From NCBI GenBank assembly GCA_001910725.1, contig MJGA01000003.1, positions 1,798,001-1,862,000 of the forward strand: a DNA stretch of 64,000 nucleotides. The letters are read 5' to 3'. Shown in pieces: positions 46,164 to 56,402 of this stretch. The notes under the pieces are model-generated. The model did not search any database and had not been told where the DNA came from. It saw only the letters and a list, made by a program, of their open reading frames with translations. How positions within the stretch are numbered: position 1 is the first letter of the stretch; every line of letters begins with the position of its first letter. The position numbers and the translations under genes are program-made. The DNA comes from Phanerodontia chrysosporium. Taxonomy: Eukaryota > Basidiomycota > Agaricomycetes > Polyporales > Phanerochaetaceae.

Positions 46164-49100
46164 TTACTCTGTCATAAAAGTCGGAAAGTTTGCCATGAAC
46201 GACGCCGAAGCTCCCAGACGCTGCAGGACCATCGCACTCGTCGGACTATTTGACCTTCTCTTGAGTTCCGCACTCAATCGTCTCGCCATCGTCAAGGCCG
46301 GTTGCCCAAGTACGAGCCTCTGCTCCTTGCAGACCGAAAGCAACGCCCATTCGATGAACAGCGCTGCCGTCAAGGAGCTCGAGATTACCGAGACAACGAG
46401 CTCGACGAGGATCGTCTGGTCGGCTCGATGGTCCGTCGCCGTGATGATCGTCGGGAGCACGATGTGCAGAAAAACAGGGAGGAGCGGGGGCGTATGTGGC
46501 GCACGCGGTGTGCTGAGGACGAATGTCGCCAGCCGGCGTGGAGCCTCAAGCTCGCCCATTGCAGACGCCACGACAAGCTCTGACCAGAGTACGGTGAGGA
46601 AGTTGATCGGGTTCGTGAACAGCAGGCAGCGCTCCACGTCCAGCGAAGGCGCTTTTCCTGACCGAGCGTCGCTGAGGGCTTCATGTATCGCACGAACAAC
46701 TGGGTCGACGGTAGGTTGCGGCGGAGGCGGATCCGACGGTGCGGATGGCTCTGCGTTGTCAAGTTAGTATGTGTTTCCAAGAGCAGCAGAAACCATGTAG
46801 TACCTTCACTTTGGAGACCTAACGCTTGCATCGCTAGCTTTCGCAGTGTCGTTGGATCGAAACCCTTGGTTGGAGATTGAGATGGCGAAACGACCCTCGG
46901 GGGAAAGGTGCGGAGGACCTCGTGGGCGGAAAGTTTCAGGACGGGTACAGGACATGATGGCGACTGCAGCAGTGTTTGCAGAATGTCGATAAGCGGAGCT
47001 ACGTTGAATCTGAGTAGTCTGCATTCAGTATGGAGCGGAGAGAATGTCAACGAGATTGGATACGTACATGACCCTCTGTCTTACAAGAGTTTACTCCGCT
47101 TCGCTCCGTGGATCAGTAGGCGAAGGAAAGAGGTGGGAGGGTTGATTATTAGGTTACAGAAGTAGTTCGTTGTAAGTTACATTGGTTGTCAATCCAAGGT
47201 TTTTTTCAGGAAGACGAACTAAGGCATGCGAACGATGACGAACGCGAGAGAGAGCTGTGTACAACTGGCCATGTGTGAACACTGGTGTCGTAAGATCGAC
47301 ACCAACGCGATCAAGCGTCAAGCCTTGACAACTGTGGAATGTTGTCGCATACGCTAGAGCAAGTGGATACTGTCGACGGAGAAGGGTGAAACCTGAGTGA
47401 AGCTCGTGCGTGAAAGTTATGCGCGGAATGAGGAACTGTTCGTGGCTCTCACCGTTTCCGTACTCCGTCGACTGCGATGTGTCGTGACGGAGAATTCGAA
47501 CAGTGATGACGCGGTTGCCAAGAGCGGTGACGACTACGCGAACGTTTTTAACCAGTCCCTGTTCAATAGAGAAGTTGCGAAGAAGGCGGTAGACCGCGTT
47601 GATTTTGATGACGAGAGTATGTGGAGGGAGACCAGGTGGTGTGCGCCGCGCAGCGTAGTCAAGAAGACTGTGAGCGTCGGCGGGAGGGACAATGTTGGCA
47701 TCATCGGCTTCTTTGAGAGAGTCCGCTGCAAGGTATGTGCGACTGTCACCGAGAACGGCCTGCTGGATTTCTTCGTTGTAAGCATCGACCTGCCGATTGG
47801 TGGGAGCGAGAATGGCTCTTTTCGCACAGGAAACGGGGTCTCGGAGACGCGGTGGTGGGAACACGAAGTCGATGAGTTGCTGAGCAGAGGAGGCTTTGTT
47901 CATGAGGTGCAAACTTACTTGAGGTCCAGCAGTGCCATCTCCGATGTTGTCAATGAAGGTTGCGAATTCGGGATCCTGAGCGTTGCGCACGGGAAGAGTG
48001 AGCGGGTAGATGGTGAAGAGATGCCACAGCGGAGAGCTTTTGATCGAAGCTCGCAGGACGTCTGCTTTCCGACCAGCTCGGACGACGGGAGCAGTCTGAC
48101 GAAAATCGCCCAAGAGAACAACGGTCTTGCCGCCAAAAGGGACGTTAGGGCGATTGCAAACGTCACGGAGTGTTGCTTCAACGCAGGCGAGGACAGCTTT
48201 GTTCGTCATGGGGGCTTCATCCCAGATGATAAGCCTCGCGTGCCGTATAAGCTCGCCTCGAGAGGAACGTGCAGTAATCGGCGACCTCAGAAATTCGTTG
48301 TTGTTGTTGACGGGGACCTGGAAAAGAAGTAGTATAAGGAATACTGGACAGTATGGATGGGTGGATGAGAAGTTTTCACCTTGAATGTGGAATGTGTGGT
48401 TCGACCACCGGAATAGAGTTGCGCAGCATACGCAGAAGTAGCTGTTGCAAGAACGACGTGTTCACGTGCACGCAGAAAATCGCACATAGCGTTCACCAGG
48501 AATGTTTTCCCTGTACCTGCCTTGCCGTCTACAAATGCAAGGAAGGGGGTGTCGTTTAGTGCAGCAGAGATGACAGCGTCGAAGATTGTTTGTTGGTCAG
48601 CGTTGAGAACAGATATTGAATTTTGTGCGCGAGATGTGATGTGCGGGAGAGCAGGGTACCACCGTTCCAGTTCATGCTCGACCTCAGCCGCATAAGTCAG
48701 TGGTTCCGGTAGACCGTAGTCGGAGAGTGTTTTGCCATGTTCTTCAAGAAGAAGAGAGAGTTGCTGGAGAGCTTGATTGACACCGAGAGCCTCATGAGCA
48801 TTGTGGGCGATGATGTAGTCTTGGGCGAGGAAGTGAACAATGCCCTGCCATAGTGTCACAGGAGTAGAGATGCAGTCGTTGATGAGGAGATGTGCGAAGA
48901 GCACGCGGAGTTGATGCGGGGTGCTCAGCATGTCGATAGCTTCTTGCATTGCGAGGTCTCCTTCGTTCGCATGTGCAAACAGGCCAAGTGCAGACGCAGC
49001 AAGTTGAAAGGTGGAATGCTGAATGTTGTCGATGGTAAGGAGGTCGTTAAAGCTGCGCACTGCACGGTGTAGCAGCAGCGTGCGGATATAGAACCGTTCA

Positions 49101-52100
49101 CCTTCGGATGGGCGAACTGGGCGGACACGGGCAATGTGGTCTGTAGAAGCGGAGCGAAGGACGACATGCATGCGAATAGCGTGCCGTGTAGCAGGAGGAT
49201 GTTGCTCCTCAAAGTAGTTCGCTCGGTGTGCGTAGCTTGCATTGTATGAGACGAGACGAAAGAGGGTGAAGTACTCGCAGTAGGTAAGCTCATCAAACGC
49301 GAGAAGATGTCCTTGCGTTGTGGTGAAGGTGCCATGCGGACGCGCGAAATACCGCTCAAGGAGAGAGAGAGAGTCCTCATTTGAGTCGTTGGAGCGCGTG
49401 TACTGGCGGTGCAAGGTGGTGTTGGGGATGTGAACAGGAAGTGCAGTCACGGCTGGATACTTTCTTGTAATGTGGAAGCCGAGAATGCGCCAAGCAGCTT
49501 CACCAGCAGAGAGGTAACGTGCGTTCCAGTACTCTTCGATTTCGTCAACTGCTTGTCCGGGCGCACGCACGGTGTAGCGGGCACGGTCAGGACCTAGTTA
49601 AGTGGAGTGGCAGAGAATGAGTGGTGCACTGAGAACAACTGCGAAAGAAGTACCTTTGTGAATGTACTTGAAAATGTACTGAAATAAATGCGAAGAGTTA
49701 GCCACTTCGAAATTGATGTGACAGTGGAGGGCACGAAGGAGAGGAAGACAGTGAGGGACGACCATGCCATCCTCTTCGTGTCGTCGGCGATAGAGAACAC
49801 GGCCGCCGTGATCAACTGTCGTCTCCGAGCGAACGGGATGGGGATAGTGAAAGCGGCACGTTCGTACTCCATCTGTCTCACGCTGACAGTACCGAGCAAG
49901 TACTCGTGAATCAGCGGGAGGATGTTTGTGCATCATGTGCTGCTCAACGAGCAGACGGTCGGTAGGGTCTGTCGGAAGCTCTGCAGAGACGACGGCGTCG
50001 ATTGCGCTTGGGGATACGCAATCTGAGCTATACTTCACGAGAATATGAGCATGAGGTAAGCCGCGCTTCTGGAATTCGATGGAGTGGATGAAATAGACGA
50101 TGTGACCAGCGTTGGGGAACATAGAACTCAGCAGTTGTTCAAGTCGCCTCAGCTTTTGTTTGAAGACGCGGACGACGATGAGAGGGACGTGGGTGTGTGT
50201 CTGACCGGGGCGCAATTGTGAGACAATTTCAGGCCAGGTCGGGTTGCAAGTCATCGTAATGAAGAACGTCGGGGGGCCGTATTGTGCAGCGAGGGCAAGA
50301 GAGTCTGCAATCTGTTCTGATGCCCATCGGTTTGAACCTAGGAAGGATGAAGGAAGGTAGATGTTTTCCGTAGGTTCTACGGATGCGACACCCATCAGTT
50401 CCGCATCTTCTCGCATAACGTTGTGTTGATTCTCCCGAATGTAGTTAAGACGGCAGTCAAGGTCGCGAGTGAACATGTCGACGAGATATTCATTCGTGAG
50501 ACGGCCAAAGATCTCGAAACGCTCGTCATGAAGAAGAAGAACACGATAATACCACATCTGAGTAGCACTGCGATCAGGTAGAGGATTGTCGTAAGCATGA
50601 CGGGGACACAGCTGAGACGTGCTCCCAACAACGCCCCAGCCAAGCGTGCCGAATGGAAAGAAGAGAGGATAAGCGAGAGGTTCCCAAAGACGGCTGATTG
50701 TTGGAATCGCATGTGAGCCCTCATCAGTACGACGGATGATAAGACGACGAGCGCGGACTTCAACCATCGCAGTGTTCTCGTAAGACATGAAAGCTGCGAT
50801 TTCAGGAGACGTCCCGGTGTCCTCGATAATGATTTGGGCGTCAGGACAAAGTGCAGGAGGGATTTGGCTGAGCACACGAAGATAGAGTACGAACGGGTTG
50901 ACACGGATGAGAGCTTGCTGTATTGCTCTGATCCAAGCGGGAGGTATCTGGTTGGCGAGGGTCTCATGGGGTGCTAAGCTGTTCATGAACCCGTCGTATA
51001 GTATCCAGCGCACGGAGGAATTCGCATGGCTCGGACGTACTCGATGGTAGACCTTGCCTTGGATGGCGATGAAGCCGCTGTCCCCGCCGTAATCAGGAAA
51101 GTCTGCAGTAGTCTCCATCGAGGCAAAAGAGAATACGAGGTTGAGGTTTCGCGAGAGCTCTGAAGCTCGAGGATGATGAATGAATTCATTGAACTCGGCA
51201 GGAAGTGGTGGAAGCGTCGGCGCGGCATTGAGATGGGAACCACGAGGTCCACAGCAGAATCCTGGTTTCTCGCCAGTAAGAAGAGGAAGGTGGCAGTGAG
51301 GGCAAGAATGCTCTCTGCTTCGGCGAGCCCCCCAACTGAGGATAACGGGACGGAGAGAGCTGATGACCCATGTGTCGTTCACGGCGGGGGGATGAGGGTT
51401 TTCGAGAGGCCGCGGCTGTTCAAGGCTACGATGTTCTTCCTATGAACAGTTTTGCATGGTAATGTAAGGTGTAGGCAACAGATAACATGGTGAGAACGCA
51501 CCTCGTGCGCTGCGGACATGACGGCGGAATGAGTGCGACGTACAGTCGAGCATAAGGCCAAGAGAAGAAGCTGTCGAGAGGCACGTGTCGCTGACATAGC
51601 CAGGAGATGAGGACATGGTGAACTCGCTCAAGATTAACTGACTGACAGTATACAATGAGGAGAAGTAGACTACGAGACGAGAAGAGAGATGATGGAGCAG
51701 AAAGAGTATGCAGCGAAGGAGTGCGTAGATGCCTAAGCAGCGCCCGTGTTCAATTTGCGCGTCCCCCCATCACATGTTGTTCAACAGCGTCCGAAAGACT
51801 GACGACGTGATGTGTTGGACATGCTTTCCAGCAGTTGCATGGACTCCAATGAAGAGTGGCAGAGACGAGTGGAGGTGCGCTACGACGGTGTGTGAGCAAG
51901 GCAAAACTGTAGTGTGATAGGAGAGCAGACACCGCACTGAATCGTTCCAGTATGTGAAGTGATAGTGGGGTACACCTCTCCGTTGGTGTTCACAGGACAG
52001 CGTAAGGAAGTGTGTGCGTTCAACGTCACCAAGAGCATCCCACACAGAGCCAGTGATGCTTTCAACAGCGGGGAAATCGCGAGCATGCGATGGAGCACAT

Positions 52101-55100
52101 GTGTTGTTCGCACAGACGCCTGTAAAGGAGAACGAAAGGTGAAGGAGATAGAGAGAAACAGAGACGGGTGCTCACAACCACACATCAGTGACAGAACGGA
52201 TCGGAAGCGTCGTAAGACACGTCGTGCATAGGGAATCATCACGGCGAACTCTGCGGAGGGCGAACGATTGAGACTGCGAACTGCAGCTACAAATGTGAAC
52301 GGAGACTGTTACTGCAATTGATTCACGGAACCAAATTTACGAAGTGAGTACATGAGCGGAGGCTAGTAGTACACGAGCGGAGGCTAGTAGTACATCTCAA
52401 CGAGCAGAATAGGGAACAGACGGAGACGAAGCAATCAGGTGCGCGCCTTGCGTTTGCCAGCCGCTTTCGAACCGCTCTCAATAGGGCCTCGTTCGTTGTC
52501 TGCTTGCGAAGAGCCATCGTCGTCGTTTGATGCGGAAAGCAACAGTGTCGACGGTGACGGTGCGGAGATCGGTTCGCCTCCGTCAATGGAAAGATCCTGC
52601 CGAAGGAGGCGCGTGTTGCTACCAGGGGTCGGTGAAGTGTCAGCAGGGGCATGGATTGTGGAGAGTTTGCGATCTGGAGACCTATCAGGTGAGCAGTGTC
52701 ATGTGCGGAAGGAAGTTAGCTTTGCATCGGAGGGACACGAACGTGGGGCGTACGTAGGGAGGGCAAACGCGGTATATTTACGCTTCTTGGGCGGAACGGG
52801 AGTACCGTCGGGCAAGGGACGAGGACCTGCAAGCTCACCAGCCGGATTGCTGGAACTTGGCATAGCATTCAACGTGATGTTGTCGAGGTTAATCAACATG
52901 CTACCGTCTTCACGAAGTGCACAGCAGGTGCCAAAGACGGAGATGATGCTTTGCACTGCAGGGAGGCGAAAGTGAGTCCATCGCGAGGACGCGCAGTCGA
53001 GTTTCGCGCTGTGAATCGTAAGTAAGGAGGTTGGGAAGGTAAGGCAAGAGACAGACTCAATGTTAAATGTCTTCCTTTCGTCGCGGATCCACTCGCCGAC
53101 CTCGAGTGAAATGCGTTTGTCGTGGTCAAGCGAAGACGGCGGGTGAACAGCCCGGACGACGCCCAATGCTGTCACAAAGGCAGGAATGACGGGCAGATGC
53201 TCATCATAATCGGGCGCGGACGCATCACCAGGGTACGGGAAGCAATGGAGAGCTTCGAGCAATGCTGCACCACTGGAAGTTGGTGGAAGATATGCTCGAG
53301 CGACGACGAAAGCAACAGTATCGTCGGCGACAGGAACGTCATGTCTAGGGCTGTAGACACGAAGCTGCGCCTGCATGGCTGAATCGGCTGTGCTGGTGAG
53401 AATAGCCGTGTGGTAGTGATTATACCACGTTGCGCCGGACTGGACGCGACGACCACCGGCGAGTGCGAAATTTCCGAACACGATACAGGACTGAGGAGTT
53501 GTGTTTGAAGTAGTCATAGAGAAGTGCGGGAAGGGAGGACGCCTGGAAGTGCGTTGGGGGGTGAAATAGCACACTGCGAAAGACAGGAGAAAGCAAAAGC
53601 AGCTCAGGGGGTGAAGACGGCGACGGCGATGCGTTAGACCGAAAGGAGTGTAGGGTGGCAGCTGATGTGGCACACGTGTACTCGGATGACACGCGCGGAA
53701 AATCACGAGGTTGAGAGAGGAGGACGGACAGAAACGTATAAGAACAGCGGAGGGAAGAAGGAGAGAGGTCGGGGAAGCAAGTGAAAGATAAGAAAGTGCA
53801 GGCTTACTTTCGAGCCATATGGTTAAATGTCTGAGTGATATCCCGTAACAAACCCTTGACTACTCCTGCTGTTGTCCAGTTGAGCAATGGACCCTGGAAA
53901 TACGAAACCCCGTTGCTCAACGCCTCTTTGTCAAGCTTATTCGCCATGCATTGAGTGATTGCTTTGAGAAGTAATGTGGTGGCAGTCCGTAACAAGCTAT
54001 GTGGTCGCGTGCTGCGCAGGATGCCATCTTCGATACCTTCGCTGCCGGTGTCGAACAACGTCTTATACCAGCTATTGAAGGCAATCAAGTCCTCGTTGCT
54101 GAATTCCTCAACGCGACGCGTTTGGGACGCAGAATTGAGGATATCTGTTGATAGTGTCCTATCACCTATCGTGAATTTAAGATTCCAGAGCTGGGTATCT
54201 ATCAGCTACGTGAACAAGAAGCCAGGTTGAGGTATTCACCTTGAACCTAGTGAAAGCAGTCTGCGCGAATAAGACAACGTTTCCGTAATGGCTTACAGCC
54301 GCTTGTGGGTCGCCTAGCGAGAGGCACAAATAACTTCACGTTAGACTCGTGGTGAATGACTAGTAACGAATTCTTACCGACTGTTTCACAGTCATAATCT
54401 TCTATAATCGCAAGAGCGCGAGACAGCAGATCTTGCATGTTGGCATGGAGCGATAGTATCTCCAGAGAACGTTCGTGAGAGTAAAGGATCTTGCACATGT
54501 GACCGAGCGATTCTATGTCGTTTGCCGAGGAGTACGACTTGAAACGCTGCGTTTCTTGTGGGTCAGACCTGAGCAACGAGTGAGACAACGAAGGCACGAG
54601 GCACCTTCTTCACTATGTTAGCAAATGTCGCGTGACTGCATGGATCCTTCCATATTTTCCGAAGGATGGGGAGTGCGTCGTCGACGTTCATGTCTGTGCT
54701 GAAGCGAGACTCTAGATAGGACTAAAATAGCTGAACATTAGCATTCAAGCTGCAGAATCCCTACCAAGTCGCACCTCTAGGTCAGAGCTGTGCTCCTGGG
54801 CTTCGGTTTGCATGCGCGGGTGAAAGTCGTTCTGCAGATTGGGATTGATACTCGACACCACGGTTTGGTCGAGTAGACCGACGGCCAACAGCTGATGCAG
54901 CAATTCAGACATGAAAGGCTGCGACCTATCGACGCTGAGACGCTGAGCCTATGGTGTCGAGGAAGAACCTACGTGCTGTTATTGCTACCGCTATTATTCT
55001 GATCTGTGGGAGGGAGATGATAAACGCTATCACACTGTGCCAAGAGGTCCGCTCGCTGGAACAGAGAGGTGACTGCTATCTGCATAGCTGATCGCTGGCC

Positions 55101-56402
55101 AATACTGTCAACATGGACAGGACGAAAATTCACGTCGAGCACATACCCAATCGGTCTCAGGGGTTCCATCCAGATCCACAGATTTCTCAAACATGGCCAA
55201 CAAATGGGGCAGCTATTCCACCGATGAGGACGTAGCAGGGAAGTAACAGGACGCTAGCACGCACCCGACCTACTATGAATGCGCGCCATAACGCTGCGGA
55301 TCTGCTACTGCTAGGGTTTGAAGCAGCTTGGGCGAGACAAGCCACCGCGGATTGCATCAGTTGCGTGTAAAACGTAGTTGCCTTCCACGACGTCCAGCGG
55401 ACGAGAGCTACCAGCAGGACCACAGCCCGACGGCCATCCCCAGAGCCAAAGGGACTGGCTCGATTGATGAGCTATGTACAAACCGAGTGAGATCTAGTTT
55501 GATCTCGGGTTCAATTACTTACCATGTTGTGCAATAGCAAGCCGCACGTTATGATGTCTTTCCCGCTGGAAGTGCCGCTCAGAGTGTCGCCTTTGCCGAA
55601 CGTCAACTGGAGAGTATGCATCATCTGAGTCTCGCGCGTTGCGTCGTCGCCGATTGCACTCGTGAGCGCGTAGGTGAACTGGTCTAAGACGTGTCGTGTG
55701 TCTGGCGAGAGACGAAAGCCAGCATGCGACATTACGGACATGTCTTGTAGAAACATAACTCCCAATGGTGTGGGTATCTGCGAGACGTCACTGATTGTCG
55801 ACAGTAGAAGAATCAGTAGCTCTGATGCAGAATTTGTCAATTGGTGAAGATGTGTTTGAGGGAGCGTATGTGCCGTCTTGAGCAATGCCGTAGCGTCTAG
55901 GACCGTGTTGAATACCACTGGAAGCGACTGGGTAAATGGTACGATAGAACCAATAGGAGGCATGCCAGAGGAGTAGTGACAATCCAATGCCAACCTGCAG
56001 AGCATGTCTAGCGTTGACACGGTCTGGAGCTCTGCAGACCTCGCGGCAGAGAGGAATGTCGAGATGAAGGTTGCTAGCGATAGGATTCCGTCTGTAATTG
56101 CATGACGCAAGTATGCAATAAGGTCCGGGTCGCCGCGGTAATCCCTGAAGAGAGCGAGGACGGAGTCTTCAACAGTGGGCATGTAGGAATGCTGAGGCAA
56201 TATTACGCTTACTGCTCAGTGCGGACTCTATATCCTCATGGGACGCCTGAGTGAGATTCTTGGAGACGAACAGTTTGCACAGGCTAAGCCACTGCAAGCA
56301 GTATCCTTGAGTATGTGACTGTGGGCGCAGAAGCTATGCAATTACTTTCGTGGCTGAGAGACCACTCTGGAAGGAGTTCCTGGTCAACTCGCTGAGAGAC
56401 AT
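46164..56402 (-). CDS. MED5: Mediator complex subunit 5 split by a Helitron-bearing intron
   Basis: Tail-module subunit of RNA polymerase II Mediator. The start is [19 protein letters not shown], then [13 protein letters not shown]. Recognised exons continue through [93 protein letters not shown] and [19 protein letters not shown] to [19 protein letters not shown]. The donor at 53807 (CGAAA|gtaagc) and acceptor at 47010 (actcag|ATTCAAC) join in frame to give [17 protein letters not shown], so the 3' exons at 47009-46164 belong to the same gene. The 6,798-nt intron holds the Helitron. Two junctions (near 56170 and 54960) were not resolved. Confidence 0.85.
47154..51616 (-). CDS. Helitron RepHel: HUH replication initiator fused to Pif1-type helicase
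   Basis: Exons 51616-51502, 51435-49654, 49593-48380 and 48317-47154 give an uninterrupted 1,424 aa. Zinc-finger-like start [19 protein letters not shown]. Rep domain: [17 protein letters not shown] motif [14 protein letters not shown], two-Tyr motif [12 protein letters not shown]. Linker with the [15 protein letters not shown] region. Helicase: Walker [17 protein letters not shown], motif Ia/[15 protein letters not shown], motif [17 protein letters not shown], and the C-terminal motifs [16 protein letters not shown] and [11 protein letters not shown]. All catalytic residues named for the family are present and no frame break was found, so the element may be active. The exon 1/2 acceptor (ggaag) is the least certain border. 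Confidence 0.93.
51729..52231 (+). CDS. Cys-rich small protein encoded antisense within the Helitron
   Basis: Not recognised. Exons 51729-51891 and 51951-52231 (intron gtgagc...ttccag with a ctgaat branch motif) encode 147 aa. The N-terminus [20 protein letters not shown] followed by CWTC suggests a CxxC...CxxC zinc site, with further Cys later (RCATT, EVC, STC, DACK, DGC) and a basic end [13 protein letters not shown] resembling a nuclear localisation signal. It is divergent from RepHel, with 112 bp between the start codons. A competing minus-strand open frame covers the same DNA ([14 protein letters not shown]...[16 protein letters not shown]), so the strand is a judgement based on zinc-finger-like spacing. 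Confidence 0.5.
52350..52391. repeat. Two tandem 21-bp repeats in the Helitron
   Basis: The units at 52350-52370 and 52371-52391 (acaYgagcggaggctagtagt) differ at one base. They lie between the 3' ends of the plus-strand Cys-rich gene and the minus-strand accessory gene, and may be a short minisatellite. Confidence 0.85.
52435..53517 (-). CDS. Helitron accessory protein, possibly OB-fold
   Basis: Start [20 protein letters not shown]. Two exons joined by an intron near 52760-52695 (donor gtacgc or gtgtcc, both in phase). The first exon is mostly beta-strand-like ([51 protein letters not shown]), with a pattern compatible with an OB-fold single-strand DNA-binding domain; [19 protein letters not shown] is a second strand-rich part. 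The tail is disordered with Lys/Arg at the end (GKRKART). RPA-like genes are known passengers in some Helitrons; that identity is inference and the sequence does not carry a textbook RPA motif. Confidence 0.6.

Follow-up and report, generated by a model that had tools for sequence, protein, structure and literature searches.

The question raised by this locus is whether a gene that has received a complete transposon can still be read across it. The locus lies in a stretch of 64,000 nucleotides of Phanerodontia chrysosporium (contig MJGA01000003.1, positions 1,798,001 to 1,862,000), called hereafter the window, in which MED5, the gene for Mediator subunit 5, is found on the minus strand on both sides of a Helitron, from 56402 to 46164. 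The initial annotation had placed the element inside an intron of MED5. The best explanation as a whole, with a probability of about 0.7, is a different one: the Helitron was inserted in a MED5 exon, it brought its own splice donor, and the splice acceptor of the host was reused. The anatomy of the insertion (i.e., its ends, the target site, the ancestral exon and intron, and the in-frame junction) appears close to certain from the DNA; the use of the splice and the continued function of MED5 are what we infer from it. The coordinates of the features are collected in Table 1.

That MED5 exons flank the element, as first proposed, is well supported. The upstream exon matches the Pfam Med5 profile (E-value 6.7e-6, 24.7 bits for a cut-off of 26), and the assembled protein has 88 homologues over its length, the first being that of Phanerochaete carnosa (77% over 100% of the protein) and the next that of P. 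sordida (72%). Full-length homology to Mediator subunit 5 is found, and the structure 7jmn_E of the PDB is matched as well (E-value 6.9e-7). It must be noticed that the query of the homologue search and the final exon model differ at two borders (five residues out, five in), which leaves the lengths of 948 and 953 residues unchanged, and that the scoring of the homologues described below took only the stretch around the junction, which is the same in both exon models. The Helitron is in sense orientation to MED5, its RepHel gene being read in the same direction, and it looks autonomous, as had been stated: the Helitron_like_N (E-value 6.3e-39) and PIF1 (E-value 2e-28) domains were found in the 1,393-aa open RepHel.

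The limits of the element were obtained by comparing its ends with other copies in the genome. Positions 53803-53839 (or slightly more) are matched at two other places, with 95% and 90% identity, and both places are copies of a repeat of about 0.4 kb lying in differing surroundings. Further copies of this repeat occur on contigs C80 and C85, and a related family on several more contigs, sometimes at contig ends. The terminal sequence of the 5' tip is common to the window and to the copies at C13, C60, C80 and C85. In this first group of copies the 5' ends begin with T[C/T]ACTCATACATTTAACCAGATG[G/A]CTCGAA(A)GTAAGT, and at the 3' ends CTCTTG comes after a conserved block. In the window, TCACTCAGACATTTAACCATATGGCTCGAAAGTAAGCC marks one side of the element, and on the other side a block of this type is again followed by CTCTTG. 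Both ends being common to dispersed copies, the limits of the Helitron are 47084-53838, and its 5' end is placed 31 nt upstream of the donor considered below.

The target site leads to the same limits. Of the other 5' ends, 7 with distinct flanks and 4 from one contig-end family were compared, and each of these 11 has an A before T[C/T]ACTC; a T follows in 7 of 7 matches to a 3'-end pattern that did not require T (two of them share one flank). In the window the insertion is likewise between A and T, without target-site duplication. The element begins with TCACTC at 53838, i.e., with the 5' TC of Helitrons (some other copies have TT). It ends in CTTG, as the copies do, which departs from the strict CTRR and agrees with the CT[A/T]G of Pleurotus Helitrons; the conserved 3' block of the copies is followed by CTCTTG or CACTTG. 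The same 3' block (47090-47112 in the window) has a core GCGAAGC or GCGCAGC. Sequences of the type d(GCGNAGC) form an unusually stable DNA mini-hairpin, which nearest-neighbour folding would not reward.

When the two flanks are joined, the empty site reads ...CGG GAT A/TA AGA CAG AGG GTC AT (the slash marks the insertion point), then GTACGT...CTACTCAG, then A TTC AAC GTA. The original donor (47067), now beyond the 3' end of the Helitron, has 7 of 9 consensus matches and thus equals the best native MED5 donors. At this place P. carnosa has ALLREI-KQRAV-AVSPHIEILQTLLQ. Around the junction, 79 of the 88 homologues favour the empty-site protein, 5 tie and 4 favour the Helitron version; the empty-site version, being shorter, is favoured by the scoring, whereas the length of the Helitron version costs score. 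The number of residues between two anchors is 25 in 82 homologues, 27 in two, 24, 26 and 28 in one each, and 13 in a partial protein, to be compared with 26 for the empty site and 31 for the Helitron version. From the scores and the anchor spacing it follows that the 10-residue stretch ending in HMARK is, as far as the sequences tell, an addition that replaced RQRVI, and that the exon was struck 16 nt before its intron.

An in-frame join of donor and acceptor would also be expected if the Helitron lay, as initially proposed, inside a pre-existing intron with its donor at 53807, behind a MED5 exon ending in HMARK. This is very improbable: 53803-53839 is the terminal sequence of Helitron copies elsewhere, hence HMARK is not MED5 sequence; the extra residues are absent from the homologues; and the expected MED5 residues, followed by a normal intron of 58 nt, are encoded just downstream of the Helitron. 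The statement that the exons remain intact at both ends is thus half true, the upstream exon being cut and its last 16 nt lying now at 47068-47083. It could be supposed, in the reverse sense, that the shared 37 bp are the end of the MED5 exon, captured and then spread by the Helitron, since Helitrons are described to capture host fragments (PMC4778049). We leave hardly any room for this, as the block stands exactly at the end of the element, after A, in independent copies, TCACTC and CGAAAGTAAGCC recur at the end of a diverged family, and the homologues found have no room for these residues. The empty allele or second haplotype that had been proposed for comparison is absent from the assembly for the two MED5 stretches searched as DNA: 46164-47170 matched itself only, and 53000-54200 (of which a part is MED5) matched itself, six relatives of the Helitron open reading frame 1 (ORF1) and two short copies. 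A second MED5 copy in the assembly is rejected for the same stretches.

How would MED5 be read after an exonic insertion? According to the explanation favoured here, an autonomous CTTG-ended Helitron would have been inserted in sense orientation between A and T in the MED5 coding exon, presumably by rolling-circle transposition, judging from the family of the element. Its 5' tip, open in the landing frame, would extend the MED5 exon and bring a donor 31 nt from the end of the element. If this donor were joined to the old acceptor, a single intron of 6.8 kb would be removed, made up of the remaining Helitron sequence, the orphaned exon end and the old intron, and the product would be a MED5 of 953 residues (948 for the empty site) in which RQRVI is replaced by 10 residues ending in HMARK.

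The individual steps are compatible with the DNA. The donor GT at 53807 and the acceptor AG at 47010 do join in frame, as had been noted. The Helitron donor has 6 of 9 matches to the consensus; the 12 native donors of MED5 have 5-7, and a score of at least 6 is reached by 28 of the 570 GT dinucleotides of this strand of the locus. The 31-nt tip is open in two of the three frames, and the landing frame is an open one. Through the Helitron donor the exon is in phase 2, the same as before the insertion, thus it remains compatible with the old acceptor. Another acceptor, located just beyond the Helitron and examined by eye, was rejected: it would shift MED5 out of frame. In a predicted model of P. 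carnosa MED5 (mean predicted local distance difference test score 85.5, from an alignment of 35 of the 88 homologues), the site of the change is the last turn of the helix 672-689 and the loop before the helix 694-705, i.e., a helix end and a loop that may tolerate five extra residues.

The part of MED5 downstream of the Helitron is open. Its identity to P. carnosa is 74.0% after the site and 81.3% before it, and to P. sordida 64.1% and 78.6%, respectively; between P. sordida and P. carnosa the values are 66.1% and 79.8%. With reference to Cytidiella melzeri, the identities after and before the site are 52.0% and 55.9% for this MED5, 57.4% and 57.4% for P. carnosa, and 48.6% and 53.9% for P. 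sordida. By these comparisons the downstream part shows little sign of decay.

Several points weigh against the explanation. (i) Four of the 88 homologues favour the Helitron version and five tie, in a scoring that is itself biased by length, and none of the 88 is about 100% identical to either form of MED5. (ii) In the comparison with C. melzeri the downstream part is below the upstream part and below the level of P. carnosa, so that a slight relaxation may have occurred. (iii) The folding energies of three examples give no support to the expected 3' Helitron hairpin (−0.1 to −0.8 kcal/mol; 198, 188 and 152 of 200 shuffles, respectively, fold at least as well). (iv) The junction 53808-47009 is a predicted one. 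(v) An unspliced MED5 RNA would reach a stop directly after HMARK, and an intron of 6.8 kb amid introns of about 50 nt may be poorly spliced. The length ratio first given for this intron, about 100 times that of its neighbours, agrees with the present values (6,798 nt, whereas the 12 other predicted introns of MED5, counting the old one as reconstructed, measure 46-64 nt), and the warning that splicing may be affected was right.

This last point leads to the most serious alternative, to which we give a substantial but minor share: the insertion is the same, but the long intron is not usefully spliced, and MED5 is either truncated at 690 residues or expressed as Helitron-MED5 chimeras, as a tolerated loss or a recent insertion. 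The frame is open up to HMARK and is then closed by TAA at 53806-53804 (open reading frame 53804-54205; the 690 residues are obtained by arithmetic), and the intron is far outside the size range of the others. In yeast MED5 is described as individually non-essential (PMC3750046), thus even a broken allele could persist, and an intact element with an undamaged downstream part would fit a very recent insertion as well. On the other side, a dead allele needs neither an in-frame, phase-matched donor nor an open downstream MED5, although a recent one would not yet have decayed. That useful amounts of the 953-residue MED5 are made is, on the sequence features listed above, slightly favoured over the contrary.

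The tip donor is of more general interest if it is a regular part of such elements. A second Helitron family of the genome has 70-74% DNA identity to the first over stretches of RepHel, and its 5' end was traced from the coding part, not from the motif. Five copies were aligned: three with different flanks start, after A, with TCACTCTTTTATTAAGCACCTCGCACGAAAGTAAGCC; the copy on C44 has lost the first bases of the tip and kept CGAAAGTAAGCC; the copy at C83:77808 has neither the tip nor CGAAAGTAAGCC. The window and the second family have in common TCACTC and CGAAAGTAAGCC, the 19-20 nt between them being loosely alike. Because the two families are related, the 12-mer common to both measures conservation and not coincidence. 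The pattern ATYACTC-N10-30-CGAAAGTAAG is matched 11 times in 39 Mb, at 10 distinct sites since two matches overlap, and the reversed pattern has no match; having been built on known copies, it reflects rarity outside Helitrons and not an independent conservation. The donor is at 30-31 nt from the end of the Helitron, or at 42 nt in the contig-end family, and the donor block is also present in short copies. Its phase varies between copies, thus it is not conserved as coding sequence. Among the 10 sites are those at C58:1515688, C83:57414 and C113:1252431.

The block may be recognised by the RepHel protein, act as donor of a leader intron of the element itself, or soften the effect of sense insertions. 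A reading with somewhat better than even chances is that the CGAAAGTAAG block is kept only for one of the first two uses, i.e., recognition of the left end by RepHel or splicing of the leader intron, and that its use in MED5 is luck. Left-end cleavage belongs to Helitron transposition (PMC4778049), the block is kept in short copies without RepHel, and upstream of ORF1 the window contains CTTTCGCAG, a possible acceptor. The C80 copy lacks one base and still has GTAAGT intact; this speaks in the other direction, but it is one case and proves little. It must be stressed that such luck is compatible with the explanation proposed for MED5 itself, i.e., exonic insertion, donor of the element and reused host acceptor.

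Whether other insertions of this kind exist was considered from the upstream flanks of 7 of the 10 motif sites (window included) and of the C80 copy: only the window is clearly inside coding sequence. A sense reading frame is present upstream in 4 of the 7 other flanks (in the distances given for frame ends the stop codon is counted). On C60, a frame of the Yju2 type, a splicing-factor family, ends 28 nt before the element, and the short sense copy starts 25 nt past the stop (C60:9396). On C124, the Pfam-matching piece of a sugar transporter ends 451 nt before the element and another sense frame 68 nt before it. On C80, a galactose-1-phosphate uridylyltransferase frame ends 466 nt before the element. 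On C13, a 172-aa frame with no Pfam match ends 108 nt before it. No clear gene is found in the upstream flanks at C85a, C73a and C73c.

The RepHel gene of the element has Rep and helicase motifs and no internal stop. A database protein, P0090, is equally long and identical at all but 2 of the 1,393 residues; its record gives the source as «lgn», with 4,768 nt for the longest contig and 3 member sequences. Of the three RepHel introns, two measure 62 nt, a length that breaks the frame, thus P0090 comes from spliced RNA if that protein was called without introns. Among the nine MED5 proteins of the source «lgn», two are on contigs of 3,007 and 3,183 nt; a MED5 gene with introns, of the kind described here, would not fit in such lengths, which likewise points to spliced RNA as the origin of «lgn». 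Among the matches listed, the next RepHel relative belongs to P. sordida (67%, covering 79% of the length). ORF1 has no Pfam family above cut-off, and a search with a 324-aa splice version of it gave one relative (P0089, 47%); ORF1 has a basic C-terminal part, and it is the whole ORF1 that the second Helitron family conserves. Inspection by eye showed in both families a TATA-like run (GTATAAG or TATATAAG) some 100 nt from the 5' end, on the strand complementary to that of the Helitron genes; it is at 53736-53742 in the window and at the corresponding position of the C13, C60, C80 and C124 copies. It is perhaps an outward promoter, antisense to the first part of MED5.

The genome as a whole contains at least 17 Helitron_like_N matches (18 candidates scored), 15 of them without internal stops and 6 in open frames of more than 2,000 aa. 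Since there are so many matches, several of them in long open frames, several Helitron families are probably present. In a short Helitron-like family, of which some copies are near contig ends, T[T/C]ACTCAT repeats are stacked before the 5' end, as if one 5' end had been inserted beside another. No telomere repeats were found near the contig-end copies in the 6 loci looked at.

Table 1. Coordinates of the interrupted MED5 gene, the Helitron and related copies. Positions are those of the window, except those preceded by a contig name; exon-intron structures are predicted; in the splice donors the slash marks the exon-intron border.
Feature	Position	Strand	Remarks
MED5, upstream part	53839..56402	-	11 predicted exons, residues 1-679 plus one base (residue count by arithmetic)
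Helitron 5' tip, readable as MED5 coding	53808..53838	-	31 nt, including the first two bases of the K codon
Helitron-borne splice donor (predicted)	53806..53807	-	CGAAA/GTAAGC, 6/9 matches to CAG/GTAAGT
Predicted chimeric intron	47010..53807	-	6,798 nt: Helitron minus tip, orphaned exon end, old intron
Complete Helitron	47084..53838	-	6,755 bp, 5'-TCACTC...CTCTTG-3', host A 53839 and T 47083; ends compared with other genomic copies
Helitron ORF1	52435..53517	-	two predicted exons (53517-52754, 52681-52435), 336 aa
RepHel gene	47154..51519	-	four predicted exons, 1,393 aa, Rep and PIF1-helicase motifs
Orphaned last 16 nt of the MED5 exon	47068..47083	-	RQRV plus two bases, downstream of the Helitron
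Original MED5 intron	47010..47067	-	58 nt; own donor CAT/GTACGT (displaced), acceptor CTACTCAG (probably reused)
MED5, downstream part	46164..47009	-	two exons (47009-46804, 46750-46164), stop at 46164
Short Helitron-like family, copies	C66:1-1890 (L039), C85:48469 and 139560, C63:420020, C51:1275, C47:4866, C41:6390, C24:950964, C106:43553		

Introners, transposons that multiply as introns, are short multi-copy families, whereas here a single 6.8-kb autonomous element in a single gene is concerned, and many similar copies placed as introns in coding genes are not found among the sites whose upstream flanks were considered. The likeness would be in the splice sites. In introners a transposon brings the 5' splice site, the host gives the 3' site and the insertions can add codons (PMC9860276); in the same manner, a predicted in-frame donor is brought here by the element, the other site would come from the host, and a few residues would be changed. 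The word «helitron» occurs 0 times in the main text of that paper.

Among Helitrons, as far as the available text of the cited papers goes, the closest are the HELPO2 elements of Pleurotus ostreatus, with 5' TC, 3' CTTG and an AT target (Castanera 2014; PMC4289320). The element of the window is like them in its T[C/G] 5' end, CTTG 3' end, AT target and RepHel of about 1,400 aa, and differs from HELPO2 as described by its 5' splice donor and its insertion in an exon; introns in RepHel are reported for two HELPO1 subfamilies (PMC4289320). In bats, HelibatN3 has captured the promoter and a splice donor of NUBPL (PMC4778049). There a Helitron donor joins downstream host exons, as it would here, but that of HelibatN3 was captured from a host gene and the exon trap acts from its own promoter, while here the donor is part of the terminal sequence itself, and a host exon would be lengthened by it. 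In the maize allele RabGDI-alpha-hel, a Helitron changes splicing and replaces a stretch of the host protein, which would also be the case here; it is inserted in intron 10 and supplies a whole exon, whereas here an insertion in an exon would supply an exon end and a donor (PMC6981192). In the open-licence literature, most subscription papers being outside the search, no report was found of a donor in the terminal sequence of a Helitron or of an exon insertion rescued by it. The mechanism is thus of a known kind, and the arrangement, i.e., a conserved donor in the tip of a Helitron, looks new.

It is conceivable, though we consider it rather unlikely at present, that a spliceosomal donor situated about 30 nt from the 5' end is regularly present in the Helitrons of this basidiomycete group; each sense insertion in a transcribed exon would then be a half-made intron in need of a host acceptor, and MED5 an early case. 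Such a feature predicts that sense exonic insertions of Helitrons in related fungi are tolerated more often than antisense ones. The origin of new spliceosomal introns is a long-standing question, and introns made by transposons are known mostly from short families; here an intact rolling-circle transposon seems to bring the 5' splice site in a conserved terminal place. The MED5 gene may still work despite the insertion, the tip of the Helitron apparently supplying both amino acids and a splice signal. If this is true, the body of a new intron was formed from a large autonomous transposon, the tip of which came to be read as protein.

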